The notes below the pieces were generated by a model that saw only the letters and a list, made by a program, of their open reading frames with translations, was not told the origin of the DNA and ran no database searches. This document shows, piece by piece, positions 1 to 26,900 of a stretch of 55,446 nucleotides of DNA (positions are counted from its first letter, which is position 1; the number at the start of each line of letters is the position of its first letter). A program made the position numbers and the translations under genes. The stretch spans positions 1-55,446 of the forward strand of contig JAHJJD010000129.1 in NCBI GenBank assembly GCA_018822845.1, given 5' to 3'. Origin of the DNA: Gammaproteobacteria bacterium (GTDB lineage Bacteria; Pseudomonadota; Gammaproteobacteria; Thiotrichales; Thiotrichaceae).

Positions 1-971
1 AAACCGTTGGACGGATCAGGCAGTCTGGACGGCGTAAGCGGGATTAGCTGGTCTTCAGTCAATTTCACGAAGGCTGAAAGATGATCAAGAATAATTCCAA
101 TGGACTGTTCGGAAGCTGGGGAACAAGGGAGAATATTGGTTCTAGCTAGCTGCTCCCGCCACGCGGCAAACCGTTGCACATGGTAAACACTTGAAAGATT
201 ACGCAGGATCATCTCAACCCGCTCAAGTCCTACCACACACTCGGCAAACACCGTATCCGCCGGAATCAACAAGCCATCATCCGCCACATAATTCTCAATA
301 AACAGCGAATTGGAAATCTCCACAAACCTCCCGCACCGACAGGAGCCAATCGCCCTTTCTGCACTTTCACAGCTTGGGCAGGCGACTTCAGGTCGCTCAT
401 AAAACACCTCCGTATGCGGCCCACACTTTTTGCCATCGCTGGCAATCTGCCCCGTCGAACGCTGCCGCCAGAAACAATGGTGCTGATCCAGCCCCACCAA
501 CCGTTCTTCCGCAACCCCCAACGCTTTCCAGCATTGGTAACTGGCTTCATCCCGCCCAAATTCCACGTCATCCAGATACGTCACCCACAAACGTTCCTGT
601 TCCAGCCCCAACACCTCGGTCAGGAAATGCCACAAACGCGGCAACACCGTTTCCCGCTCACTGCACCCAATATGAAATGCAGCCGACATATGAAACAGGC
701 TCAGGCGTGTCGGGTCTTCCCCCACCTGCTTCATATCAAAATGCCGGAAACACGGCTGGGTAAAGGCAAACTTCCCCCCTGTCTCCTCCACGATCTTTTC
801 CAGGTCATTCTCAACCTGGATCAAACCGGCACTCATGACAAACGACATGGGTACAGAATCATGCAACAGGGAGGAAGGCGGTAAACGGGCAAAGCCATCC
901 CGCTCGTGCAAGGCGAGAAACGCCTCACTAATGGCTTGACAGTCCCATGTGATGGGTTGTGCTGGGGTCAT
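1..971 (-). CDS. Alanyl-tRNA synthetase-like protein, catalytic domain (partial, runs off the left edge)
   Basis: Reading the minus strand from an ATG at 971 gives an open frame with no stop up to base 1 (about 323 codons). It resembles the class II catalytic core of alanyl-tRNA synthetase: an N-terminal FLALHERDGF..PPSSLL stretch like the AlaRS start, a motif-2-like FTQPCFRH with the arginine kept, CGPHTEVFYE matching the AlaRS CGPCxEIFYD signature, RFVEISNSLF like the RFxEIWNxVF segment, and VVGLERVEMILRN like the motif 3 GMGLERxxxVLQ. The HHTFFEMLGNFSFG segment of true AlaRS is changed to LSLFHMSAAFHIG, and a CPSC..CRC insertion after the CGPH motif could bind zinc. It is therefore more likely a paralogue than the housekeeping enzyme; what it aminoacylates or adenylates cannot be told. 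No strong Shine-Dalgarno precedes the start. The C-terminal part lies outside the window. Confidence 0.8.
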   Translation of the reverse strand, partial: MTPAQPITWDCQAISEAFLALHERDGFARLPPSSLLHDSVPMSFVMSAGLIQVENDLEKIVEETGGKFAFTQPCFRHFDMKQVGEDPTRLSLFHMSAAFHIGCSERETVLPRLWHFLTEVLGLEQERLWVTYLDDVEFGRDEASYQCWKALGVAEERLVGLDQHHCFWRQRSTGQIASDGKKCGPHTEVFYERPEVACPSCESAERAIGSCRCGRFVEISNSLFIENYVADDGLLIPADTVFAECVVGLERVEMILRNLSSVYHVQRFAAWREQLARTNILPCSPASEQSIGIILDHLSAFVKLTEDQLIPLTPSRLPDPSNG

Positions 972-1030
972 TTGGCAAGTCCCGTGGGTAAGGGGCAGAC
1001 AGGTTGATTAATTCACCTAATCTTTATGTT

Positions 1031-1060
1031 GTTATAGCAATTTGTCATGCTTTTTGACAA
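1031..1060 (-). promoter_or_regulatory. Probable promoter of the AlaRS-like gene, overlapping an inverted repeat
   Basis: On the minus strand TTGTCA (1060-1055) and TATAAC (1036-1031) are separated by 18 bases, a good sigma-70 arrangement about 60 bases before the start at 971. The -35 hexamer is one arm of the inverted repeat TTGTCA/TGACAA (1042-1047 and 1055-1060), so a repressor could sit over it. The rest of 972-1199 is AT-rich and holds no gene. Confidence 0.45.
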
Positions 1061-1199
1061 TAGGTAAATCAAGAATAACAAAGAATAAAATAAACGAGCA
1101 TCTTGTAAATCAAAAACAATTCCTGCCAAAGGTGCAACACCCCGTCAAGCCAGAGCCGCTATACTTGAATTTACCATCAATAATAATCAGGCGGTTCCC

Positions 1200-2462
1200 A
1201 TGACCAGCGAATTCACCACTTTCTACCATCTCGCTGTCGCCCTCGCCCTCGGGCTGCTGATCGGCATTGAACGCGGCTGGAAAAGGCGTGACGCCGAGGA
1301 AGGCCAGCGCATCGCCGGGTTGCGTACCTTCGGTCTGCTGGGTTTGCTGGGCGGCTGCACGGCGCTGCTGACCAACTACATCGGCGCAATCACCATCGGG
1401 CTGATCTTTGTCGGGCTGGCTGGCAGTCTGGCGGCGATTTACGTGATCAACCTGCGCAGCCAGAGTACGGTGGATGCCAGCATCACCAGCCTGATTGCCG
1501 CATTGCTGGTATACGTGTTCGGCCTGATGGCGGGCAACGGCATGTTGGCGGAAGCTGCCGCCGCCGCAGTCGTCACCACGGTTTTACTGGAATACAAACC
1601 GCAATTGCACCGCTGGGTTCAGACGCTTCAGGAACATGAATTACAGGCCGGAACCAAACTGTTGCTGATTTCCGCCGTCGTGCTGCCGCTGCTGCCCAAT
1701 CAGGGCTATGGCCCGTGGCAGGCGCTGAACCCGTATGAAATCTGGTGGATGGTGGTGCTGATCGCCGCCATTTCCTTCGCTGGTTACTTCGCCCTCAAGC
1801 TGGGCGGGGCGCGCAAGGGCGCAGTGTTGACCGGCCTGCTCAGCGGGCTGGTGTCGTCGACTGCCCTGACCCTGCATTTTTCCCGCCTGTCGCGCAAGGA
1901 ACCGGAGATGGTTCCCATGCTGGCGACCGGTATCCTGCTGGCTTGCGGCACCATGTTTCCGCGCATGTTGCTGGTGGCAAGCCTGCTCAACCGGGAAATA
2001 TTCGGCTTCCTGCTGGTTCCTGCTGCCGTCATGGCGGTGCTGACCTATGTGCCTGCGCTGGTTTACTGGCGGATGTTTTCCGGCATCCAGGGCGAACCGC
2101 GTGCCAACCTGCACAATCCGCTGGAACTCAAGACGGCCATTCTGTTCGGCATATTGCTGGCGGTCATCATGCTATTGGGAAAGGGGTTGCAGGAATGGTT
2201 CGGGGAGTTGGGCATCCTGTTACTGGCGATGGCTTCGGGGGTAGCGGATGTGGACGCCATCACCCTGTCGCTTGCCCGCATGAGCATCAATCAACTGTCG
2301 CTGCAAACGGCTACTCAGGGAATCATCCTGGCTGCTGCCGTCAACTCGCTGGTGAAAGCAGGCATTGCCACCGCCATTGGTGGCTGGGGTATCGGCCTGC
2401 GGGTAGGTGTGCCATTGCTGCTGACAGCAGTTAGCGGCGTGGCTGTTTGCTACTTTTCATGA
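1200..2462 (+). CDS. MgtC/DUF4010 family integral membrane protein
   Basis: The 420-residue product is almost wholly hydrophobic, with roughly a dozen membrane segments. The N-terminal part carries the MgtC/SapB-like ALGLLIGIERGWKRR and RIAGLRTFGLLGLLG segments; the C-terminal part is DUF4010-like, with LLSGLVSSTALTLHF and ASGVADVDAITLSLA. MgtC proteins are linked with magnesium limitation, but for the two-domain family the transported or sensed substrate is unknown. A possible -10 (TATACT, 1159-1164) lies upstream. It is transcribed toward nnr, 61 bases away, and may be a separate unit. Family assignment is firm, function is not. Confidence 0.85.
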   Translation: MTSEFTTFYHLAVALALGLLIGIERGWKRRDAEEGQRIAGLRTFGLLGLLGGCTALLTNYIGAITIGLIFVGLAGSLAAIYVINLRSQSTVDASITSLIAALLVYVFGLMAGNGMLAEAAAAAVVTTVLLEYKPQLHRWVQTLQEHELQAGTKLLLISAVVLPLLPNQGYGPWQALNPYEIWWMVVLIAAISFAGYFALKLGGARKGAVLTGLLSGLVSSTALTLHFSRLSRKEPEMVPMLATGILLACGTMFPRMLLVASLLNREIFGFLLVPAAVMAVLTYVPALVYWRMFSGIQGEPRANLHNPLELKTAILFGILLAVIMLLGKGLQEWFGELGILLLAMASGVADVDAITLSLARMSINQLSLQTATQGIILAAAVNSLVKAGIATAIGGWGIGLRVGVPLLLTAVSGVAVCYFS

Positions 2463-2523
2463 GGAAAAACGGCTGGTTTATGCATAAGCTCTATGGAGTA
2501 TGGTCAGAAAAGGATGGCTTGGC

Positions 2524-3996
2524 ATGACAGCAGTGACAGACAGGGTTTTTACAACGGCGCAGGTGCGGGAACTGGATCGGGTGGCAATTCAGGAACACGG
2601 CATTCCGGGCTATACGCTGATGTTGCGTGCCGGGCAGGCCACCTTCGACCTCATCCGGAAACGCTGGCCTGAGGCAAAATCCCTGTGTGTGCTGTGCGGC
2701 GCAGGCAATAACGGCGGGGATGGCTACGTCATTGCCAAACTGGCCTTGCAGGCAGGCTGGCAGGTAAGTGTGCTGGCACTGGGTGATGTCCTGCGTCTGG
2801 GGGATGACGCCCAGCAAGCCTACAGCGACTTTCAAGTGGCAGGTGGGCGGGCCAAGCCATTCGACGGTGAACTGCCTGCCAGCGAGGTGCTGGTAGACGC
2901 TCTGTTCGGCACCGGCCTTACCCGCGATGTGGAAGGCATTTATGCCGACGCGATCAGGCAAATCAACCAGCATCCAGCACCTGTCGTGGCGGTGGATATT
3001 CCTTCCGGCCTCAATGCCGACACCGGCAACCCCTGCGGCTGCGCCGTCAGCGCCAACCTCACCGTCACGTTCATCGGCTGGAAAGCGGGCTTGCTGACCG
3101 GTAGCGCGCGTGATTATTGCGGCGAAATCTGCTTTGCCCGGCTGGACGTGCCGGATGCCGTCTACACCCAGGTTCCCGCCCACATGCACAAACTGGGCAT
3201 GCATACCTTGCAAACCTGCCTGCCGCCACGTCAACGCACTACGCACAAGGGAAGCTGCGGCCATGCCCTGCTGGTCGGGGGCGCACCCGGCATGAGCGGT
3301 GCCATCCGTCTGGCCGGGGAGGCTGCCTTGCGCGCAGGCAGTGGGCTGGTTTCCATCGCCACCCATTCGGAACATGCACCATTGCTCAACCTGACCCGTC
3401 CGGAACTGATGGTGAATGCCGTCGATTCCCCCGTGCATCTGCGCCATCTGCTGCAAAAGATGGATGCGCTTGGCATCGGCCCCGGCATGGGGCAAACTGC
3501 CTGGTCGCGTGGCCTGCTGACCATGGTGCAGAATGCCGATATGCCCAAGGTGCTGGATGCTGACGCCCTCAACCTGCTGGCACAAACCCCGGTCAGGCGT
3601 GACGACTGGATATTGACGCCGCACCCCGCTGAAGCTGCCCGCCTGCTGGCCTGCGAAACAGCCGATGTGGAACGCGACCGTATCGCCGCCGCCCGCCGCC
3701 TGCAACGCGAGTACGGTGGCGTCATCGTGCTGAAAGGTGCCGGAACCGTAGTCGCTTGCGCCGCAACCGTCGCCCTGTGCCCGGCAGGCAACCCCGGCAT
3801 GGCCTCCGGCGGAATGGGCGATGTACTCACCGGAATTATTGCAGGCTTGCTGGCTCAAGGGCTAGGATTGGCACAAGCTGCCGAAACAGGTGTTTACGCC
3901 CATGCGCTGGCAGCCGACAAGGCAGCGGCCAATGGCGAACGCGGGCTGCTGGCAAGCGATGTACTGGCCTGTTTGCGGGAAACGGTAAACCCATGA
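2524..3996 (+). CDS. nnr: Bifunctional NAD(P)HX epimerase/dehydratase
   Basis: The 490-residue product repairs hydrated NAD(P)H: the N-terminal YjeF domain (about 1-210, with GNNGGDGYVIA and VDALFGTGL) epimerises NAD(P)HX, and the C-terminal ribokinase-like domain (about 225-485, with GGAPGMSGA, LDADALNLLA, LTPHPAEAARLL and GGMGDVLTG) is the ADP-dependent dehydratase. Full length for the family. I chose the ATG at 2524 because AGGA (2511-2514) lies nine bases before it, whereas the in-frame ATG at 2500 has no usable site. The stop overlaps the tsaE start (ATGA), so the two are translationally coupled, as in many gammaproteobacteria (E. coli yjeF-yjeE). Confidence 0.95.
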   Translation: MTAVTDRVFTTAQVRELDRVAIQEHGIPGYTLMLRAGQATFDLIRKRWPEAKSLCVLCGAGNNGGDGYVIAKLALQAGWQVSVLALGDVLRLGDDAQQAYSDFQVAGGRAKPFDGELPASEVLVDALFGTGLTRDVEGIYADAIRQINQHPAPVVAVDIPSGLNADTGNPCGCAVSANLTVTFIGWKAGLLTGSARDYCGEICFARLDVPDAVYTQVPAHMHKLGMHTLQTCLPPRQRTTHKGSCGHALLVGGAPGMSGAIRLAGEAALRAGSGLVSIATHSEHAPLLNLTRPELMVNAVDSPVHLRHLLQKMDALGIGPGMGQTAWSRGLLTMVQNADMPKVLDADALNLLAQTPVRRDDWILTPHPAEAARLLACETADVERDRIAAARRLQREYGGVIVLKGAGTVVACAATVALCPAGNPGMASGGMGDVLTGIIAGLLAQGLGLAQAAETGVYAHALAADKAAANGERGLLASDVLACLRETVNP

Positions 3997-4406
3997 CTGA
4001 ACACTTACACATCCGGGATGAGGCAGCAATGCTGGCGTTGGGGGCTGAGCTTGCGCGCCGTTTCCCCAACGGTGGTTTGATTACCCTGCACGGCGATTTG
4101 GGTGCAGGTAAAACCACCCTGGTGCGCGGCCTTTTGCGGGAACTGGGTCATGCTGGTGTCGTCAAAAGCCCGACCTATACGCTGGTCGAGCCTTATCACG
4201 CAAACGGGCGGGACATTTTCCATTTCGACCTTTATCGCGTAGCGGATCCTGAAGAACTCGAATATATGGGCATCCGCGATTATTTACGGCCAGATGCCCT
4301 CTGTCTGGTGGAATGGCCCGAAAAAGCGGGCGATATATTACCCAAACCCGATTTGCAGGTGTTCATTCAGCATGCCGCTACCGAACGTCGGGTAGAATTG
4401 CATTAA
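3993..4406 (+). CDS. tsaE: tRNA threonylcarbamoyladenosine biosynthesis ATPase TsaE
   Basis: This 137-residue cytoplasmic P-loop protein is the ATPase that works with TsaB and TsaD to place threonylcarbamoyl on A37 of ANN-decoding tRNAs. GDLGAGKTT (Walker A), VKSPTYTLVEPY, FDLYRVADPEELEYMG and LCLVEWPEKA are all hallmarks, and the length is typical. It overlaps nnr by four bases. TsaC, which makes the threonylcarbamoyl-AMP donor, is encoded at 7061-7624 in this window. An AT-rich 173-base gap separates tsaE from the amidase gene; I see no clear terminator in it. Confidence 0.96.
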   Translation: MTEHLHIRDEAAMLALGAELARRFPNGGLITLHGDLGAGKTTLVRGLLRELGHAGVVKSPTYTLVEPYHANGRDIFHFDLYRVADPEELEYMGIRDYLRPDALCLVEWPEKAGDILPKPDLQVFIQHAATERRVELH

Positions 4407-4579
4407 TATCGTATTTTCATTAAGTTACACGACCTTCATCAAAAAACACTTGAAAATTTTCCGATATGGTTCAATACTAAATAAAAGCACACAAAATTTT
4501 CATTTGACAGTGGCTCGACGGGCAACGCTGCTGCTTTCCTTTGCCCTTGCCACAGGCAACTGTTTGAGAGATTTAGGTC

Positions 4580-5803
4580 ATGAATAGTAATAATGTGGCC
4601 AGGAGAAACTTCCTGTTAAAACTGGGTTCACTGGCTGGTGTCATGGCTGCCGGGCTGGTTTCCCCCAGAGCTTTTTCTGCCGATCAGGGTCGGGTTACCG
4701 GCGCAAACCTGGAAGGCAGTGCCAGCAACCTGACGTTTTCCCTGTCGCTGAATCAGCCGGTCGAATACAAGGCGTTCACCCTGGCGCAGCCTGATCGCGT
4801 GGTCATCGACCTGATGGATACGCGCCTGGCGGGCAAACTGAAAAACGGCGCACATGACCGGCCACCGGTCAAGGCTATCCGTTACGCTGAACGTGAAGAC
4901 GGTCGCCTGCGGGTGGTGCTGGATGCGGTGGAAGAAGTCTCCGTCAAAGCCAGCATGAAGGGCAATACCCTGAATGTATCACTCAAACCAACCGGTCGTG
5001 GCAGCACTGGCGGCAAACCAGACAAACCATCTGGCAAGTCCTCGACCAGCAAGAAGAAAAGCAAGGAAAAGCCCGTCACCAGTGAACCGGCGCGTGGCAA
5101 ATTCATCGTGGTGATTGACCCCGGCCACGGTGGTAAGGATCCCGGCGCAACCGGCCCCGGTGGTACCCGCGAGAAGGATGTCGTCCTGCAAATCGCACGT
5201 CGCCTGAAGACACAGATTGACAAGGAACGCGGCATGAAAGCCATTCTGACGCGCGATTCCGACAAGTTCATTCCCTTGATGCAGCGCATTGATATTGCGC
5301 ATAAAAACAAGGCTGACCTGTTCATTTCCGTGCATGCTGACGCCAACCGCAATTCAAGTGTCAGCGGCTCTTCCGTTTATATCCTGTCAGAAACCGGTGC
5401 ATCCAGCGAAGCTGCCCGTCTGATGGCGGAAAGCGAGAACGCTTACGAACTGAAATTTGGCGATCGGCGTCTAAGCAATACCCGCAGCCAACTCGCTTCC
5501 GTACTGCTGGATTTAAGCCAGAACGCCATGATCGACCGCAGCCTGAATCTGGCTAAAGGTGTGCTGGGCGAGTTGTCCAAGGTCAACAACCCCCTGCGTC
5601 GGCGGGTGGAAAGTGCCCGTTTCGTGGTGTTGCGTTCGCCAGACATCCCTTCCATGCTGGTGGAAACCGCTTTCATCAGTAATCCGACTGAAGAAAAACG
5701 CCTGCGTACAGCGGAATATCAGCAAAAACTGGCGAATGCCGTGTTCAAGGGCGTCAAACGTTATCAGGTCGCCTATGCCAACAGTGGCAATGCAAACACC
5801 TGA
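4580..5803 (+). CDS. Tat-exported N-acetylmuramoyl-L-alanine amidase (AmiC/AmiB family)
   Basis: The 407-residue periplasmic enzyme cleaves the amide bond between MurNAc and the peptide stem, for septum splitting. It starts with a twin-arginine signal (RRNFLLKLGSLAGVMAAG), followed by an AMIN domain (about 35-140) for septal targeting, a Ser/Lys-rich linker (about 145-170) and an Amidase_3 domain (about 172-397). Zinc ligands and catalytic residues are visible in IDPGHGGKDPGA, LFISVHADAN and MLVETAFISN. A Tat signal plus AMIN resembles E. coli AmiC, while the position after tsaE matches amiB; no LysM domain is present. Its transcript probably ends at the hairpin at 5846-5875. Confidence 0.94.
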   Translation: MNSNNVARRNFLLKLGSLAGVMAAGLVSPRAFSADQGRVTGANLEGSASNLTFSLSLNQPVEYKAFTLAQPDRVVIDLMDTRLAGKLKNGAHDRPPVKAIRYAEREDGRLRVVLDAVEEVSVKASMKGNTLNVSLKPTGRGSTGGKPDKPSGKSSTSKKKSKEKPVTSEPARGKFIVVIDPGHGGKDPGATGPGGTREKDVVLQIARRLKTQIDKERGMKAILTRDSDKFIPLMQRIDIAHKNKADLFISVHADANRNSSVSGSSVYILSETGASSEAARLMAESENAYELKFGDRRLSNTRSQLASVLLDLSQNAMIDRSLNLAKGVLGELSKVNNPLRRRVESARFVVLRSPDIPSMLVETAFISNPTEEKRLRTAEYQQKLANAVFKGVKRYQVAYANSGNANT

Positions 5804-5843
5804 CAGACAAACAGGTTTCAAATTTTAGAGGTGGATCTCTCTG

Positions 5844-7013
5844 TTAGCCGGGGCAAGCTCCCGGCTTCTTTTTGTCTGTGGCATCGGCCCGATATGGCGA
5901 ATGCTGATTGACCGAACGCATGTAATCCGCCACCGAATTCTTTTCATATGCCGAATGACGTTCTACCGCCTGGCGGAAGGTTTCCTCCCGCAACCAGTGG
6001 GCAGAGCGGGTCAGGGTGGGAATGAAACCGCGCGGCACCTTGTGTTCCCCCTGCGCGCCCGGCTCGAACACCTGCAAGCCGTGGTGGATACAGTACTCAA
6101 TCCCCTGATAAAAGCATGCCTCGAAATGCAGGCTGTCGAAATATTCCGTACACCCCCAGTACCGCCCGTATAAACGGGTATCGCTGCGGAACATCAGTGA
6201 ACCGGCAATACATTCCCCTGCACGGTCATCCGCCATGACCAGCAGCACCCGGTCGCCCAGCGCCTGCCCCATTTCGCGGAAAAATCCCTCATTCATGGTT
6301 GGGATGCCCCACTTGTTTTCAAACGTGAGCCGGTAGAAATAAGTGAAACGCTCCCAGTCGGCAGCCGTTGCCGTATGCCCGTCCAGTTGGCGCAGTGTCA
6401 CGCCAGCTTCCACCACTTTGCGGCGTTCCTGACGCACATTCTTGCGCTTTTTGGCGCTCAGGGCGGCGAGGAAATCATCAAAACTACGGTAATCGGCATT
6501 GAGCCAGTGAAACTGGCAATCGTGGCGGATGGTCAACCCCTGTTGCGCCATCCAGTCAAGCTGGTCAGCAGGCGGAAACAGGCAATGGAAACTGCTCGCC
6601 TCCAGCGCTTCCGCCAGTTGCATGACGGCGGACAGCAGCAGCGGGAACAGCTCCGCTTCCCGCCCGGCCTGTGCCAGCAAGCGCTGCCCACTGACTGGCG
6701 AATACGGAATGGCTGACAGCAATTTGGGGAAATACTGCATGCCCTGCCGTTTATAAGCTTCCGCCCAGGCATGGTCGAACACGAATTCGCCGTAGGAATT
6801 GTATTTCTCGTACAAGGGCATGGCAGCAATCAGGATGCCGTGTTCATAAACAGCGATATGCCGTGGCAGCCAGCCGAATTCCTCGCCCACACAGCCGTTA
6901 TGCTCCAGCGCGGCCAGCCATTCGTGGCGCAGGAACGGGTTACCGTCCTGGATCAGGGCGTTCCACTGGCTGGCGGGTATGTTATCAAGTGAATCGTGTA
7001 TCTGGATTTGCAT
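5844..7013 (-). CDS. GNAT-fold acyltransferase of the COG3146 / DUF482 family
   Basis: The 389-residue product matches the COG3146 family (annotated loosely as 'peptidoglycan biosynthesis protein' or N-acyltransferase), with NPFLRHEWLAALE near the N terminus, YSPVSGQRLL, KRKNVRQERRKV in the middle and a GNAT/FemX-like C-terminal half (GECIAGSLMFRSD, ARYWG-like LYGRYWGCTEY, FEACFYQGIEY). FemX-like proteins transfer aminoacyl groups, but the substrate of this family is unknown. I chose the ATG at 7013; an in-frame TTG at 7037 is possible. The lysine-rich tail KKKPGACPG is encoded by the opposite-strand terminator hairpin. It lies 47 bases downstream of tsaC on the same strand. Confidence 0.85.
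   Translation of the reverse strand: MQIQIHDSLDNIPASQWNALIQDGNPFLRHEWLAALEHNGCVGEEFGWLPRHIAVYEHGILIAAMPLYEKYNSYGEFVFDHAWAEAYKRQGMQYFPKLLSAIPYSPVSGQRLLAQAGREAELFPLLLSAVMQLAEALEASSFHCLFPPADQLDWMAQQGLTIRHDCQFHWLNADYRSFDDFLAALSAKKRKNVRQERRKVVEAGVTLRQLDGHTATAADWERFTYFYRLTFENKWGIPTMNEGFFREMGQALGDRVLLVMADDRAGECIAGSLMFRSDTRLYGRYWGCTEYFDSLHFEACFYQGIEYCIHHGLQVFEPGAQGEHKVPRGFIPTLTRSAHWLREETFRQAVERHSAYEKNSVADYMRSVNQHSPYRADATDKKKPGACPG
5846..5875 (+). terminator. Rho-independent terminator of the amidase gene
   Basis: AGCCGGG (5846-5852) pairs with CCCGGCT (5860-5866) around a seven-base loop, followed by TTCTTTTTGT on the plus strand. The hairpin lies inside the last codons of the convergent acyltransferase gene, whose stop is at 5844-5846. 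Confidence 0.85.
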
Positions 7014-21282: not shown

Positions 21283-21428
21283 GGGTCTAAACACATATAC
21301 AACTCCGCCGACTTGGGTGAAATAGAAATCCAAATAGTTTTATTGATTTATCAATAGATATTACTTATAGATAATGGCTTGAGGCCCGCTTGCGGCAGTA
21401 ACTTATGACAGCAGAGGGAGACAATGCC

Positions 21429-23009
21429 ATGCGAATCAAATCAGCCCATTACATTTTGTTGGGATGTTCCATCATGCTCGCCAGTTGTGGCGGCGGGGGC
21501 AGTGCAACAAGCAGCGACACAACCAGTCGCGATACTTCCGCTTTTCCAGTCAGCCTGATGGTGGCAGCACCCACCGACGTGGAAACCGTGGGTTCACGCC
21601 TTGCTGATGGGGCTGCGGCCAGAAGCAGTGCGGCGAGGATTACCTATGCCTCCGCCTTGCAGCGTATTGACGCCTTGCTGGATGGTACCACGCCATTACG
21701 CAATATATTTACACCCGAGCTTTTTTACCGTTTGGCCAGTAATGCTGGCTGCTATGGTCCTGAACTCAAGTATCAAAATAATCCTGACGGCGCGACGCCA
21801 AATAATGGCACGTTGCCGACAGGCGATCTCGGTATCTGGCAGGAAACCGACCCCACCACCGGCCACGCCTGTGTCGCAGCCCAACTGAACAGCCGCATGA
21901 AGGGTATGCGTGACCGTTCCATGGCTGGCCTGATGGTACTGGCCAGCATGATTGACCGGGTGTATGCAGTCGGGGGAACGCTTCCCGCATCCGGCAGCAG
22001 CACCAACCTGACGGCGGCCATGACGGCCCTCGGCATCCCTGATGTCACTTTCAATTCCATGATTCTGGGGAAAGACAGCGGTGGCAAGTGGAACTATACG
22101 GTTGATTTCACCTACACCCGCAGCGGCACGCCATACAGTGTGAAAATGCAGGTGACGCATAATCCGAATACAAGCACTTCTTACAACGGCGTTATCCAAT
22201 ATCAGGTACAGGACACGTTCACTGGCGGCAACTGCCCATCCAGTGCTGCTACCCGTCAGGGCAGCGTGGTGTATGAACGGGTATCCGCTGATGAAATGAA
22301 AGTTGAAGCCCGCGAAGCTGATTTCTGTAGCCACGGAGCCATGAGCGGCAGTTATCTGGCGGATGGTCGGCTTGATCCCGCCGACAAATACAATGCAGGC
22401 ACCAACCCGGATGGATGGGGCAACAACTTCAACCAGTTGGGCGCGGAATACAAGCTTTCCAACCTGAGCGGCAAGTATGCCTATAGTTGGCAGGCAGGGC
22501 CGGGGGATTCCCACAGTCGCGTCTTCAACATGGGGGTCAACGACCTTGATCCACTGGATGGGGAAGCATGGTTTGGCTTCGGGGTGCCGGTGGATACCCC
22601 GTCAGGCATAGGCACGGTTGGCCAGATCAAGGGCATGATCTGTAACTGGGCGGGGCCGGGTGGCAGCCATGCAGAACAGGAATATGCCCAGCGGCAGTTT
22701 TTCCGGTACAACAGCACGTCCGGCAAGGTTGAGGTCGCCACAGGCGGTTCCGACATTACCTATGCCCCTACTAATGCCTGCACTTATGACGGTAGCGGCA
22801 CATTCCAGTATGACCGGGATTTGAGCGGCACGCTGGATGCAAGCACAGTCGATGTTGCTACTGTCAAAACCGGCGCTTCGGGAGCCAGCGAACTTGAGTT
22901 TGACCTGTTCCCGGCGGCAGGAACCCCGTATTCGGTCATGACTATCGAAGATGCTGTGGCTACCAGGGGGTACACCCAGCCTGATACGCCGCTTTCGCCG
23001 CTGCCTTGA
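21429..23009 (+). CDS. Large lipoprotein of unknown function
   Basis: The 526-residue product has a lipoprotein signal (LLGCSIMLASC) and a mature Cys-Gly-Gly-Gly-Gly start with a Ser/Thr linker. The rest is a soluble, Gly/Asp-rich domain without membrane segments; NPDGWGNNFNQLG, KYAYSWQAGPGDSHS and MICNWAGPGGSH are the most distinctive stretches. I do not recognise a family. The GAGGGAG site (21414-21420) points to ATG 21429 rather than the in-frame ATG at 21405. The gene stands alone, divergent from the DsrC/TusE gene. The C-terminal DRDLSGTLDASTVDVATV resembles a degenerate calcium loop, but only weakly. Confidence 0.78.
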   Translation: MRIKSAHYILLGCSIMLASCGGGGSATSSDTTSRDTSAFPVSLMVAAPTDVETVGSRLADGAAARSSAARITYASALQRIDALLDGTTPLRNIFTPELFYRLASNAGCYGPELKYQNNPDGATPNNGTLPTGDLGIWQETDPTTGHACVAAQLNSRMKGMRDRSMAGLMVLASMIDRVYAVGGTLPASGSSTNLTAAMTALGIPDVTFNSMILGKDSGGKWNYTVDFTYTRSGTPYSVKMQVTHNPNTSTSYNGVIQYQVQDTFTGGNCPSSAATRQGSVVYERVSADEMKVEAREADFCSHGAMSGSYLADGRLDPADKYNAGTNPDGWGNNFNQLGAEYKLSNLSGKYAYSWQAGPGDSHSRVFNMGVNDLDPLDGEAWFGFGVPVDTPSGIGTVGQIKGMICNWAGPGGSHAEQEYAQRQFFRYNSTSGKVEVATGGSDITYAPTNACTYDGSGTFQYDRDLSGTLDASTVDVATVKTGASGASELEFDLFPAAGTPYSVMTIEDAVATRGYTQPDTPLSPLP

Positions 23010-23862: not shown

Positions 23863-25143
23863 ATGAAATATCTCGCCCAGAGTGTCTGGATGGTGATGCT
23901 GAGTGTCGCCATCAGTGTGGCCGCCGAAGCTGCACAAATCGTCACCCCGTCCCAAAGCAGCCTGTCCACCGGGGCAGAGGCTTTTGTATTTACGCCTGTG
24001 TATACAATATCCAGCCCGCAAACCGCCACATTGACTGGCTTGGGACTACGCATTCATTTCAACTCCAGTGCTGTGCAGTTCAACGGTGTTACCAGCCCGT
24101 ATGCGTATGGCCTGCAACCCGTGGGAACGATAACGGCAGATACGGAAGATTTCGACGCCGACCCCCTGACAGACAGCTATTTCGTGGTGGGCTGGGTTGA
24201 CCTGACAGCCCGCTGGCCGGGTACGGGCATGGTGCCACTGAATTTGCTGGCGGCTTCCTTTCAGCCCCAAGCCGGTTTTACTGGCATAACCCACATCCGC
24301 ACCACCGCGACGGTAACGGCGGATGCGGCAGCTTTCCAGAGTACGCCCATGACTGTGACGCTGACGGGGAGTCCGCCTGCTGTACAGGTGCGGGCTTTCC
24401 TGCAAGGCTCATATGTAATGCTTGACGGCAAGATGCGTGACAGTTTGCGGGAAAGTGGTGTGTTGCCAGCAAGCCAGCCTTATGCAGGCTTTGGTTACAA
24501 CGGCAGCGAAACGGCCTCGCCTGCGCTGCTGGCTATGACGGGGAACGATGCGCCAGTCGACTGGGTGCTGGTGGAATTGCGTGACAGTACGAATCCGCAA
24601 ACTATCGTGGCCACCCATGCAGCCCTGTTGCAACGCGACGGGGATGTGGCAAGTGCTGCCGACGGTGCAACAACACTCACATTTACCGGCATTGCGCCCG
24701 GCAGTTATTACCTCGCCTTGCGTCATCGTAACCATCTTGGCGTTATGAGTGCAGCGCCAGTGGTGTTTTCCGGCGCGCCTGTTCTGGTGGATTTCACCGC
24801 CGCAACAACCGCTGTTTATGGCAGCACCGATATTCGCCTGCCAGCCGCCAGTGTGCGCATGCTGCCCAGTGGCGATGCCAACAATGATAGCAAGCTGATT
24901 GCGGATGGCCCTGAAAACGACAAGAACACCGTGCTCGCCGTGGTAATGGTTGATGCAGGAAATAGTGAAATCAACACCAATTTCCAGGCCAGTGGCTATA
25001 AGGTCACTGACCTGAATATGGATGGCAAAACCGTGTTTGCCGGGCCGGGCAATGACGTCAATATCCTGCTGGGTAATGTCCTGCTGCACAGCGCCAACAC
25101 CACCAGCAGCACCAATTACATCGTGCGCGGGAGCATGCCATGA
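23863..25143 (+). CDS. Secreted protein with cohesin-like domain and C-terminal calcium-loop module
   Basis: The 426-residue product has a signal peptide (1-23) and then a domain at about 25-168 that reads like a cohesin fold: an opening with VFTPVYTISSPQTATLTGLG, LRIHFNSSAVQFNGV, and closing strands LLAASFQPQAGFTG and MTVTLTGS. Residues 175-325 form a second beta-rich module (RAFLQGSYVMLDGKM, LPASQPY, PGSYYLALRHRNHLGVMS) known from secreted adhesin-type proteins. The end (335-410) has two calcium-loop-like repeats, GDANNDSKLIADGPENDKN and DLNMDGKTVFAGPGNDVN, of dockerin-like type. The stop overlaps the start of the protease gene by four bases (ATGA), so the two are made together and probably act together outside the cell. 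Confidence 0.75.
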   Translation: MKYLAQSVWMVMLSVAISVAAEAAQIVTPSQSSLSTGAEAFVFTPVYTISSPQTATLTGLGLRIHFNSSAVQFNGVTSPYAYGLQPVGTITADTEDFDADPLTDSYFVVGWVDLTARWPGTGMVPLNLLAASFQPQAGFTGITHIRTTATVTADAAAFQSTPMTVTLTGSPPAVQVRAFLQGSYVMLDGKMRDSLRESGVLPASQPYAGFGYNGSETASPALLAMTGNDAPVDWVLVELRDSTNPQTIVATHAALLQRDGDVASAADGATTLTFTGIAPGSYYLALRHRNHLGVMSAAPVVFSGAPVLVDFTAATTAVYGSTDIRLPAASVRMLPSGDANNDSKLIADGPENDKNTVLAVVMVDAGNSEINTNFQASGYKVTDLNMDGKTVFAGPGNDVNILLGNVLLHSANTTSSTNYIVRGSMP

Positions 25144-26900
25144 TCAAACGTATCCCCTGTTTCTTTATACCCTTGTTGCTATTAGTGATGACGGGGGTGC
25201 AGGCGGCGGAGCAGCACGGCAAGACAGGGCCGGAAACTTTCCAGGGCGATGTCGTCCAGCGCATCAAACCAGCATTACATCTTGCACCCGCCAGCACCAA
25301 TGCGCAGCGAAGAAGCGCTCAGGTGACAGCGGATGCCAGTTTTACCCTGCCTGCGCTGTCGACGGACGAAATCAGCCAGTTGCAGAATGCCTCGCAGGAA
25401 AAGGCTTACCGCGTGGGCATTGGCCGCACCCTGCCTGCCAATCTGGGGGAATGGATCGACCTTTCCACCTGGAATTGGTCGGCTGTCAGCGGCGGGCGGG
25501 CAGCACGTTTCACCCTGACATCCAGTGGTGCGGCGCGGTTGCGGGCGCAATTGCAAACCGGCCAGTGGCCAGTCGGGGTGGAATTGCACAGCTATTCACC
25601 TGCCAACCCCACCGATGTATCCGGCCCCTACGGCGAACCAGCCAACCTGTTCTGGACGCCGACAGTAAAAGGCGACACGCTGGCACTGGAACTGTTCCTG
25701 CCGGATGGGATTCAACCCCAGAATGTGCAGCTTGCGATTCCGCAGCTCTCACACCTGATTGTCGACCCGGCGGCTTCCACCCTGAAAAATACCAGCATTT
25801 ACAAGGCTGACACCGACTACTCCAGTTGCCAGGTCGACATTGCCTGCGCTGATGCCAGTTGGCAGGAAACCGGCGAGGCCGTGGCACGCTATGTGTTTAC
25901 CGATACCGACGGATACAGCTATTTGTGTTCCGGCACGCTGCTGACGGACAAGGATACCTATACCCAGATTCCCTACTTCCTTACTGCTGCACACTGCGTC
26001 AGCAATGCGGCAGCGGCGGGGAGCATGGATTTTTTCTGGCATTACCAGAACACCAGTTGCGGTGGCAGTGGCGCTACCCCGGTACAATCCAGCGGTGGCG
26101 CGCAATTGCTGGCTACCCGCGCGGAACTCGACTCCACGCTCGTCCAGTTGAACAACAATCCACCGGTCGGAGTTACGCTATCCGGCTGGACGCTTACGCC
26201 CCTGAGCAGCAACCAGGCCATTACCGGCATTCACCACGCATTGGGCGGGCCAAAACGCTATTCCACAGGAAACTTCGACACACGGGTGCGGATTGAGGCA
26301 TCTTCCGCTGGTTTTGCCGTCATTCCCGACAGCAACGGGGATTTCTCGGCTGTGACCTGGAATAAGGGCATCACCGCCCCCGGTAGTAGCGGCTCTGGCG
26401 TATGGGTGGTGGAAAACGGCGTGCATTACCTCAACGGCTCGCTGCTGGGCGGCTCGTCGGATTGCGCGAATACGGATTCACCCGACGAATACAGCCGTTT
26501 CGAACGTTTCTACCCTTATGTCAGCAGTTGGGTGGATACTCCCGGAACGCCCCCTTCCCTCCATCTGCTGAATACCAACAACCCGCCAACGGCTTTGCGG
26601 GAGGGCGTGATCATCACACGTTACCTACAAGGAACACGCGGCAATGCGCTGCTACAGGATGTTACCAGTATCAGCGTCAATACGGTTGAGCTGGAAAATG
26701 CGCTGGCTGCACTGGTTCCCGTACTCGACATCGACGCTGACGGCAATACAGATGCGGGAACGGATGGAATGCTGCTGATCCGCTACCTGCTTGGCTTGCA
26801 GGGTGCGCCATTGCTGGCAGGGCTGGATCTGACAGGCTCAGGCCGAACCAGCGCGGCGGATATTCAGGCTTATATCGAAACGCTACTGGCGCAGTCCTGA
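25140..26900 (+). CDS. Secreted trypsin-fold serine protease with C-terminal dockerin-like module
   Basis: The 586-residue product has a signal peptide (1-23), a pro-region to about 225, and a chymotrypsin-fold protease resembling lysyl endopeptidases: YFLTAAHCVS (His285), ELDSTLVQLN (Asp331) and APGSSGSGVWV (Ser417), so the triad is intact. Cysteines around it (CSGTLL, CGGSG, SSDCANTD) suggest disulfides. The end carries a dockerin-like pair: LDIDADGNTDAGTDGMLLIRYLLG (cited by its DIDADGNTD loop, about 530-538) and DLTGSGRTSAADIQAYIETLL. A further, loop-less copy (REGVIITRYLQGTRGNALLQ, 487-506) precedes it. It overlaps the cohesin-like gene by four bases. Confidence 0.85.
   Translation: MIKRIPCFFIPLLLLVMTGVQAAEQHGKTGPETFQGDVVQRIKPALHLAPASTNAQRRSAQVTADASFTLPALSTDEISQLQNASQEKAYRVGIGRTLPANLGEWIDLSTWNWSAVSGGRAARFTLTSSGAARLRAQLQTGQWPVGVELHSYSPANPTDVSGPYGEPANLFWTPTVKGDTLALELFLPDGIQPQNVQLAIPQLSHLIVDPAASTLKNTSIYKADTDYSSCQVDIACADASWQETGEAVARYVFTDTDGYSYLCSGTLLTDKDTYTQIPYFLTAAHCVSNAAAAGSMDFFWHYQNTSCGGSGATPVQSSGGAQLLATRAELDSTLVQLNNNPPVGVTLSGWTLTPLSSNQAITGIHHALGGPKRYSTGNFDTRVRIEASSAGFAVIPDSNGDFSAVTWNKGITAPGSSGSGVWVVENGVHYLNGSLLGGSSDCANTDSPDEYSRFERFYPYVSSWVDTPGTPPSLHLLNTNNPPTALREGVIITRYLQGTRGNALLQDVTSISVNTVELENALAALVPVLDIDADGNTDAGTDGMLLIRYLLGLQGAPLLAGLDLTGSGRTSAADIQAYIETLLAQS

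Follow-up and report, generated by a model that had tools for sequence, protein, structure and literature searches.

The window (the whole stretch of DNA analysed, 55,446 nucleotides) belongs to a Thiothrix-like sulfur bacterium and carries two overlapping genes on its forward strand, on which all features described here lie. ORF A (P0001; 23863..25143, 426 aa) encodes a probably secreted protein consisting of a cohesin-like module and a C-terminal module, with relatives at loci L033–L043. ORF B (P0002; 25140..26900, 586 aa) encodes a probably secreted, lysyl-endopeptidase-like protease with a dockerin-like tail. The stop codon of ORF A and the start codon of ORF B share the motif ATGA at 25140..25143 (4-nt overlap; ORF spacing compared at 16 loci). 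The ORF coordinates agreed with those of the preliminary description, and the stop–start overlap supported the translational coupling that it had proposed. Predicted regulatory sites were uninformative, with four promoter-like and four terminator-like sites between positions 23000 and 27300 against 2.7 and 4.3 expected, respectively.

A signal peptide was read by eye at about residues 1–22 of ORF B (25140..25205). It is followed by a propeptide (residues 24–227; 25209..25820), of which residues 47–206 matched the lysyl endopeptidase propeptide 9omd_I (E 1.6e-13, phmmer against the PDB), and by the protease domain (residues 228–464; 25821..26531), which matched lysyl endopeptidase 9omd_A in the same type of search (E 2.6e-32). 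This match supported the earlier claim of a trypsin-fold protease. In addition to the propeptide (9omd), ORF B shares with Achromobacter protease I (API; 1arb, 4nsy, 9omd) six aligned cysteines, residues H285, D331 and S417 at the positions of the API catalytic triad, and D449 at the position of Asp225 of the S1 pocket. It differs from API in having Leu for His210 and Glu for Trp169 (hand-counted on the alignment) and in its added C-terminal dockerin-like module.

Cohesin-like and dockerin-like modules

The module described earlier as cohesin-like (module N hereafter) covers residues 25–168 of ORF A (23935..24366), behind a signal peptide read by eye at about residues 1–24 (23863..23934). The cohesin model PF00963 (Pfam cut-off, 24.1 bits) did not match ORF A at E ≤ 10, and hence not at its curated cut-off, and matched nothing in the whole genome of the host. 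Therefore, the cohesin-like label of the window module rests on its relatives, through which the earlier assignment was supported. PF00963 matched 13 of the 52 rows of the N family at E ≤ 0.01 (best, 3e-6; the other 39 rows without a match), and the best relative protein, a 346-aa protein with two cohesins at locus L048, scored 42.4 bits. An HMM built from the 42 rows outside the Thiothrix family scored residues 17–167 of ORF A at 121.8 bits; when P0001 was shuffled 2000 times, this HMM listed no shuffled version at E ≤ 10. Our own HMM gave the module of ORF A 216 bits. Across the 17 genomes reached via N loci or family handles, PF00963 matched nine at E ≤ 0.001 and five above the cut-off, and three of the places above the cut-off coincided in position with N modules (L080, L089 and L094), assuming that the contigs are the same. 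In genomes G028, G033 and G301, the N profile matched and PF00963 found nothing. Among 14 control genomes, PF00963 matched in two at E ≤ 10.

A profile search of the PDB with the N alignment (A4) returned no match, and the same search with far relatives (A7) returned a weak scaffoldin cohesin alone (5lxv, E 0.09). A profile comparison of N with a cohesin fragment scored better than shuffles, but with probabilities of only 17% and 25% over 44 columns. By sequence, N is homologous to cohesins at the family level, and it may adopt their nine-stranded jelly-roll fold. The acidic loop of N (residues 93–104; 24139..24174), in which D93, D98 and T103 were kept in all 52 rows and D104 in 48 of 52 (alignment A5), might bind calcium.

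The dockerin-like module of ORF B (module D; residues 485–586, 26592..26897) consists of two repeats, and its earlier assignment was borne out by the Dockerin_1 model PF00404 (Pfam cut-off, 22.9 bits). At residues 530–583, this model scored 22.0 bits in the whole protein, below the cut-off, but exceeded it with residues 468–586 alone (25.9 bits) and in the genome scan (26.5 bits). It matched five of the 25 rows of the D alignment at E ≤ 0.01, and elsewhere in the host genome it found one sub-threshold place (13.9 bits). In the control genomes, it matched nine of 14 at E ≤ 1 and exceeded the cut-off in two. The second repeat has an intact acidic loop of 13 residues (26727..26765), in which D530, D532, D534 and D542 were kept in 16, 16, 15 and 16 of 16 rows; the first repeat, as read from the window sequence, is degenerate and lacks the first Asp. 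The usual dockerin calcium loop has 12 residues. The best PDB matches of the dockerin profile were dockerins, although weak (1ohz_B, E 0.032), with calmodulins intermixed and following.

Co-occurrence of the modules and the C-terminal half of ORF A

The profiles built here found N and D once each in the host genome, in the adjacent overlapping genes. Among 63 family genomes, 22 had both modules, one had N only, two had D only and 38 had neither (Fisher p 1.1e-13, ignoring kinship and the shared operon). The N-only genome was G023. Of the D-only genomes, G004 kept the protease–dockerin ORF and a remnant of the C-terminal module while missing N, and the contig of G025 starts inside the probable partner gene. 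Twelve of the 16 genus genomes carried a single copy of each module, and three lacked both. Of 274 genomes drawn from across the class, three contained N and four contained D; the sole N genome outside the family (G301) had D on the same contig, approximately 8.5 kb away, and G144 lacked N but had a weak D (23.7 bits). At the 66 named loci with N, the fetched stretch contained no D in 22 cases, and in 25 cases the sole D lay in the same ORF as N. Thus, much of the association across named loci reflects physical linkage.

The other D-bearing proteins beside N proteins carried unrelated passengers. At L142, D is carried by a reprolysin-type metalloprotease beside an N protein whose tail is Gly-rich, hydrophobic and basic; at L048, a D-bearing haem peroxidase adjoins cohesin proteins; and at L065, D-bearing CAP and FG-GAP proteins adjoin an N protein with IPTL-CTERM. 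In Ca. Thiothrix singaporensis (L041 = L057), a 1018-aa stretch reads as a single ORF, but we did not accept it as a true fusion. Further copies of the C-terminal module in this genome are interrupted at about that position or contain in-frame stop codons, and the L041 stretch includes ambiguous bases, so a sequencing error is likelier.

These distributions bear on whether N and D are partners at all. Both could instead be calcium-stabilised accessory modules, each binding something else on the surface, for instance a glycan or the C-terminal module of a giant protein. In favour of this, cohesin-like folds and carbohydrate-binding modules are related, D was not nearby at the 22 N loci mentioned above, and the host genome encodes the C-terminal module at full length five more times, which offers possible other ligands. 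However, the two modules are rare in the class and mostly coincide, D occurs on unrelated passengers beside N proteins, and the host genome holds one of each by our profiles. We therefore consider this alternative unlikely, though it is the strongest of those weighed, and we infer, as the preliminary description had suggested, that ORF A and ORF B form a pair.

The C-terminal half of ORF A is a module (residues 173–426; 24379..25140) common to the C-termini of giant proteins. It contains two Asp-rich loop regions (alignment A3), at residues 337–356 (24871..24930) and 382–401 (25006..25065). The calcium-loop module previously attributed to ORF A thus exists, but it differs from the dockerin module, as the dockerin HMM did not find the C-terminal module. 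A PDB profile search gave no credible match for it. The module is reused on giant adhesin-like proteins. The sorting motif IPTL-CTERM (TIGR04174; cut-off, 20.5) was absent from ORF A, and two of ten scanned N proteins ended in this motif above the cut-off (L044, 22.7; L065, 28.3). From these sequences, the Thiothrix C-terminal module appears to stand where the cohesin proteins of some relatives have a sorting signal and, by analogy, might attach ORF A to the surface. The presence of exosortase as the cause of the anchor type was not cleanly supported: PF09721 was absent from the host genome, present in 16 of the 63 family genomes, and without a match in G019, although the partner protein there ends in IPTL-CTERM.

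The C-terminal half of the protease partner varied by genus, being the C-terminal module, Calx-beta with IPTL-CTERM (L044) or Calx-beta with dockerin repeats (L045). Such variation is more in keeping with an anchor than with an inhibitor. ORF A could otherwise act on the protease as a chaperone or inhibitor, or be its preferred substrate, serving zymogen control and not surface tethering; proteases are commonly coexpressed with inhibitors or foldases, and ORF A is the first gene of a translationally coupled pair. Nevertheless, ORF B carries a propeptide of its own, with a match to a solved lysyl endopeptidase propeptide, which, together with the variable C-terminal half of its partner, makes such a role improbable. 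Among the 21 genomes with the protease ORF at loci fetched for N or D, 20 had D in the same ORF and 19 had N adjacent. That D is a mere export or stability tag in an accidental gene order is very improbable given this adjacency and the position of D close to the N-terminus of proteins at L046, L048, L087 and L103, even though D sits at the protease C-terminus and dockerin-like repeats are present on many exported proteins.

Proposed surface tethering and relation to known systems

We favour, as the likely interpretation, a minimal non-cellulosomal cohesin–dockerin pair with one plug and one socket, by which a secreted protease is tethered to the cell surface. ORF A would be exported, and its C-terminal module would keep it on the cell exterior, at the outer membrane or the sheath, where it would display a single cohesin-like module. 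ORF B would be exported as a zymogen and lose its propeptide, probably via cleavage after Lys, to yield a mature secreted serine protease that probably prefers lysine. Its dockerin-like module would then dock, with calcium required, onto the cohesin-like module of ORF A, and because of this binding the protease would be retained at the surface instead of being lost to the medium. Its physiological role could be the processing of surface proteins or the supply of amino acids.

As in the clostridial cellulosome, the two module families are, by sequence and at the family level, cohesin (PF00963) and type I dockerin (PF00404), with the dockerin on the enzyme and the cohesin on a non-catalytic protein. 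In contrast to it, the present pair has one cohesin and not a scaffoldin array, a Gram-negative host, a protease as cargo and a 13-residue dockerin loop. No glycoside hydrolase or CBM family was found in P0001 or P0002, neither ORF has a cellulase, and the single N and D in the genome differ from a multi-cohesin scaffoldin with dockerin-bearing cellulases, by which a cellulosome is defined.

The preliminary description had taken a proteolytic version in a sulfur gammaproteobacterium to be new. The pair is not new in principle, because non-cellulosomal systems and dockerin-bearing peptidases are already in print. According to PMC9012536, which cites Peer et al. 2009, non-cellulosomal cohesins and dockerins are known in diverse bacteria and archaea; the archaea it describes likewise have no large scaffoldins and their modules are stated to bind, although cargo and lineage differ from ours. 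Dockerin-bearing peptidases with cohesin scaffolds have been proposed for Cloacimonadota, where, in PMC8542988, the cellulosome-like complex of Ca. Stygibacter has dockerins on peptidases (S8/S53, C25), a C-terminal domain for surface attachment and MAGs with inferred sulfur oxidation, and, like our pair, is inferred from genomes only. The scaffoldin of that complex is 3,755 aa long and carries tandem cohesins and CBMs (PMC8542988), whereas in the present pair one protein has a single cohesin and the other is a protease of the lysyl endopeptidase type. PMC12997984 similarly describes dockerin-bearing peptidases in the Limousia mucinolysome, proposed there with cohesin scaffolds, and also pairwise complexes of Clostridium perfringens, in which secreted proteins are linked by cohesin and dockerin; their cargo is mostly glycoside hydrolases and their hosts are Firmicutes.

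Candidate members were seen in the Thiothrix family and, going by contig labels, in Porticoccaceae/SAR92 and other gammaproteobacteria as well as in Planctomycetes and Verrucomicrobia. More tentatively, and with somewhat less than even confidence, the pair could represent a widespread, so far unrecognised Gram-negative surface-assembly system, in which anchored cohesins receive enzymes that are not cellulolytic, among them proteases, haem peroxidases, di-haem oxidoreductases and lipases, and in which, in Thiothrix, a lineage-specific C-terminal module also present on giant adhesin-like proteins took over anchoring from the sorting signal.

If the pair binds, its two small modules, present once each in most genus genomes, would provide a simple test system and new affinity pairs for protein engineering, and the C-terminal module would become a candidate surface-anchoring module for giant Thiothrix proteins. 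Binding would also mean that a distinct cohesin subfamily, mostly missed by the Pfam model, connects diverse exported proteins of marine and sulfur-oxidising gammaproteobacteria, and that cultured Gram-negative bacteria use cohesin and dockerin, as one plug and one socket, to keep a protease at their surface.

Co-occurrence and adjacency of the two modules

The gene pair comprises ORF A (P0001; 23863-25143, + strand, 426 aa), encoding a cohesin-like protein, and ORF B (P0002; 25140-26900, + strand, 586 aa), encoding a protease with a dockerin-like tail. The two are joined by an ATGA stop-start overlap, and each starts with a signal-peptide-like segment when read by eye. The stretch 21405-23009 holds a lipoprotein-like ORF of 534 aa (by eye, a Cys followed by GGGGS), which had no Pfam match and only weak NCBIfam similarity to a BGTF surface domain (17.4 bits vs. 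a cut-off of 40).

The pair proved real and conserved. Exactly one cohesin-like module (N) and one dockerin-like module (D) were found in 12 of the 16 genus genomes including its own; three had neither and one (G004) had D only. A 69-aa remnant of the C-terminal module of ORF A adjoins the protease in G004, so that N was probably lost there. Among 63 family genomes, module profiles detected both modules in 22, N alone in one and D alone in two, giving totals of 24 with D and 23 with N; the other 38 had neither (Fisher p 1.1e-13, uncorrected for kinship and shared operon). The protease was present in 21 genomes; its ORF included D in 20 of them and adjoined N in 19, although this is a biased census of the protease, taken from loci fetched for N or D. 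The preliminary description had suggested that the two products bind each other, and these sequence comparisons lend strong support to such a pairing. Among 16 loci, the ORFs overlapped by 4 nt in seven and were separated by 8-11 nt in six and by 80 nt in one; the larger overlaps in the other two probably reflect the start codon chosen. One contig (G025) begins inside a gene, probably the partner gene. At another locus (L043 4111-5369, G001), the partner gene lies in two ORFs (259 aa and 204 aa), which looks like a frameshift.

Both modules were rare across the class: of 274 genomes drawn, three had N and four had D. D was carried by the own genome, G019, G301 and G144, the last with a weak D and without N. 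G301 was the sole N genome outside the family, with D on the same contig ca. 8.5 kb away.

Identity of the modules and the protease

P0001 matched no Pfam family at E ≤ 10, and its genome had no match to PF00963 (Cohesin). The case for N (residues 25-168) as a putative cohesin is transitive, passing through its relatives. A scan of genome contigs yielded 67 named loci, biased towards relatives keeping the search pattern, which was seeded on the Thiothrix-family alignment; N was present by HMM in 66. Of these, 19 had D in an ORF apart from N, 25 had it only within the N-bearing ORF and 22 lacked it. An HMM built from 42 rows outside the family scored 121.8 bits on P0001 17-167, whereas 2000 shuffled versions of P0001 gave no listed match at E ≤ 10. 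PF00963 was matched at E ≤ 0.01 by 13 of the 52 N rows. At the genome level, it matched in 9/17 genomes, above the cut-off in 5/17, and was silent in G028, G033 and G301, though the N profile matches there. A protein with two N modules at locus L048 reached 42.4 bits against PF00963 (cut-off 24.1), and its sole PDB match at E ≤ 10 was the scaffoldin cohesin 4uyp_A (E 0.0052). In profile comparison with a fragment of 4uyp_A, scores were 25.2 and 26.2 vs. shuffle maxima of 18.7 and 18.1 (150 shuffles each), but the alignments spanned 44 columns and the probabilities were 17% and 25%. These low probabilities, and the three genomes in which PF00963 is silent, slightly lower the confidence in the overall reading. 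The marks of the N subfamily are an acidic loop (D93, D98 and T103 in 52/52 rows), W111 (51/52), W118 (48/52) and P119 (52/52). Resembling multi-cohesin scaffolds, proteins of ca. 2000 aa at L074, L075 and L085 (contigs labelled bacterium or Pirellulaceae) have four N modules and four dockerin-like stretches. Contigs labelled Prochlorococcus (L086, L095, L120-L122) bear N similar to that of marine gammaproteobacterial contigs, with D also in L086, L095 and L121; contamination or transfer is possible.

D (P0002 485-586) consists of two repeats. PF00404 (Dockerin_1; cut-off 22.9) scored 25.9 bits on P0002 468-586, 26.5 in the genome scan and 22.0 on the whole protein; a second place in the genome reached only 13.9. 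In the D alignment, D530, D532 and D542 (module positions 46, 48 and 58) were present in 16/16 rows and D534 (position 50) in 15/16. Both repeats share a conserved Arg-Tyr-Leu motif, its Leu being present in 15/16 rows in the first repeat. PF00404 was matched at E ≤ 0.01 by 5/25 D rows, and dockerins topped a PDB profile search with D, with weak scores.

The protease matched lysyl endopeptidase 9omd_A (P0002 228-464, E 2.6e-32) and Achromobacter protease I (API, 1arb; 228-454, E 1.7e-14) in the PDB search, and residues 47-206 matched the lysyl endopeptidase propeptide 9omd_I (E 1.6e-13). H285, D331 and S417 form the aligned catalytic triad, and the six Cys of the protease domain align with those of API. 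With API numbers counted by hand, D449 aligned with Asp225, and His210 and Trp169 are replaced by Leu and Glu, respectively. Of 20 protease ORFs examined, 16 allowed the beginning of the mature enzyme to be placed, and 11 of these 16 carried a Lys within ten residues before the first Cys, as expected for self-processing after Lys; L034, L042, L045, L136 and L140 had none there. In G009 (L039 5333-8031), the protease-dockerin gene seems to be broken up: a 473-aa protease ORF is followed, after ca. 2.3 kb, by a separate ORF with the dockerin-like part; the break is likely an insertion.

C-terminal tails and other dockerin-bearing proteins

The scan for sorting signals covered ten N proteins from other genera or lineages. 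Two of them, L044 (22.7) and L065 (28.3), had IPTL-CTERM above the cut-off; scores were below it in L138, L139 and L046, with no call in the other five; IPTL was visible by eye without a call in L135 and L137. The L044 protein, which has Calx-beta domains, is the partner of the same protease type, and the L045 partner combines Calx-beta with C-terminal dockerin repeats. In Thiothrix, a module of ca. 255 aa (ORF A residues 173-426, 24379-25140) stands in this position, and the same module ends giant proteins. Pfam and NCBIfam gave no match to it and the PDB no credible one, and it occurred in 2/274 class genomes, both of the Thiothrix family. The own genome gave seven matches, ORF A and a short fragment among them, and G017 gave 25. 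Besides ORF A, five proteins of the own genome carry the module in full length, and the four of these scanned contained cadherin, RCC1, TSP3, DUF11 or Big_9 domains. This exchange of tails between lineages points to a possible role of the module in surface attachment, specific to its lineage. It is carried at L050, L052, L053 and L054, and the giant proteins that it ends bear repeats of the cadherin, RCC1 or TSP3 type.

Other proteins carrying D near N proteins were, at L048, an animal-type haem peroxidase; at L142, a reprolysin-type metalloprotease together with a DUF1800 protein; at L065, CAP and FG-GAP proteins; and at L087 and L103, di-haem oxidoreductases. At L146, D accompanied a GDSL lipase domain, with no N in the fetched stretch. 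Eight of the ten D proteins scanned had a non-dockerin Pfam match at E ≤ 0.001; their matches named no glycoside hydrolase family and included one Laminin_G_3 domain (L146). L142 is telling: its metalloprotease, unrelated to that of the window, adjoins an N protein whose tail, read by eye, is Gly-rich with a hydrophobic segment and a basic end; NCBIfam made no call on this tail. The L048 peroxidase (618-4763, 1381 aa) has N-terminal dockerin-like repeats and adjoins the protein with two Pfam-level cohesin modules (4931-5970), in which a dockerin repeat also begins at the contig end.

Relation to known cohesin-dockerin systems

Excerpts of published work describe cohesin and dockerin domains in diverse bacteria and archaea without presumed cellulose degradation, with archaeal versions that bind (PMC9012536), a proposed complex with dockerin-bearing peptidases in Cloacimonadota (PMC8542988), dockerin-bearing peptidases in Limousia (PMC12997984) and an S8-peptidase-like domain within a scaffoldin (PMC11557425). 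The excerpt of PMC12997984 also refers to C. perfringens complexes built on cohesin and dockerin, and states that no cellulosome systems outside Firmicutes have been described so far. Full-text searches, with most subscription papers outside their coverage, found nothing for dockerin with Thiothrix or with SAR92. Papers naming cohesin and dockerin together with gammaproteobacteria exist, and adding protease left a single metagenome survey; cohesin and dockerin with exosortase led to work on methanotrophic archaea, and lysyl endopeptidase with dockerin returned the enzyme as a reagent. The N-D protease pair thus seems undescribed in the full-text literature covered by these searches. The novelty first claimed for a proteolytic version is not supported at the level of principle, where the pair belongs with known non-cellulosomal cohesin-dockerin systems. 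It is a variant with a new arrangement, which unites one putative receptor, one lysyl-endopeptidase-type protease and a putative lineage-specific anchor in a Gram-negative host.
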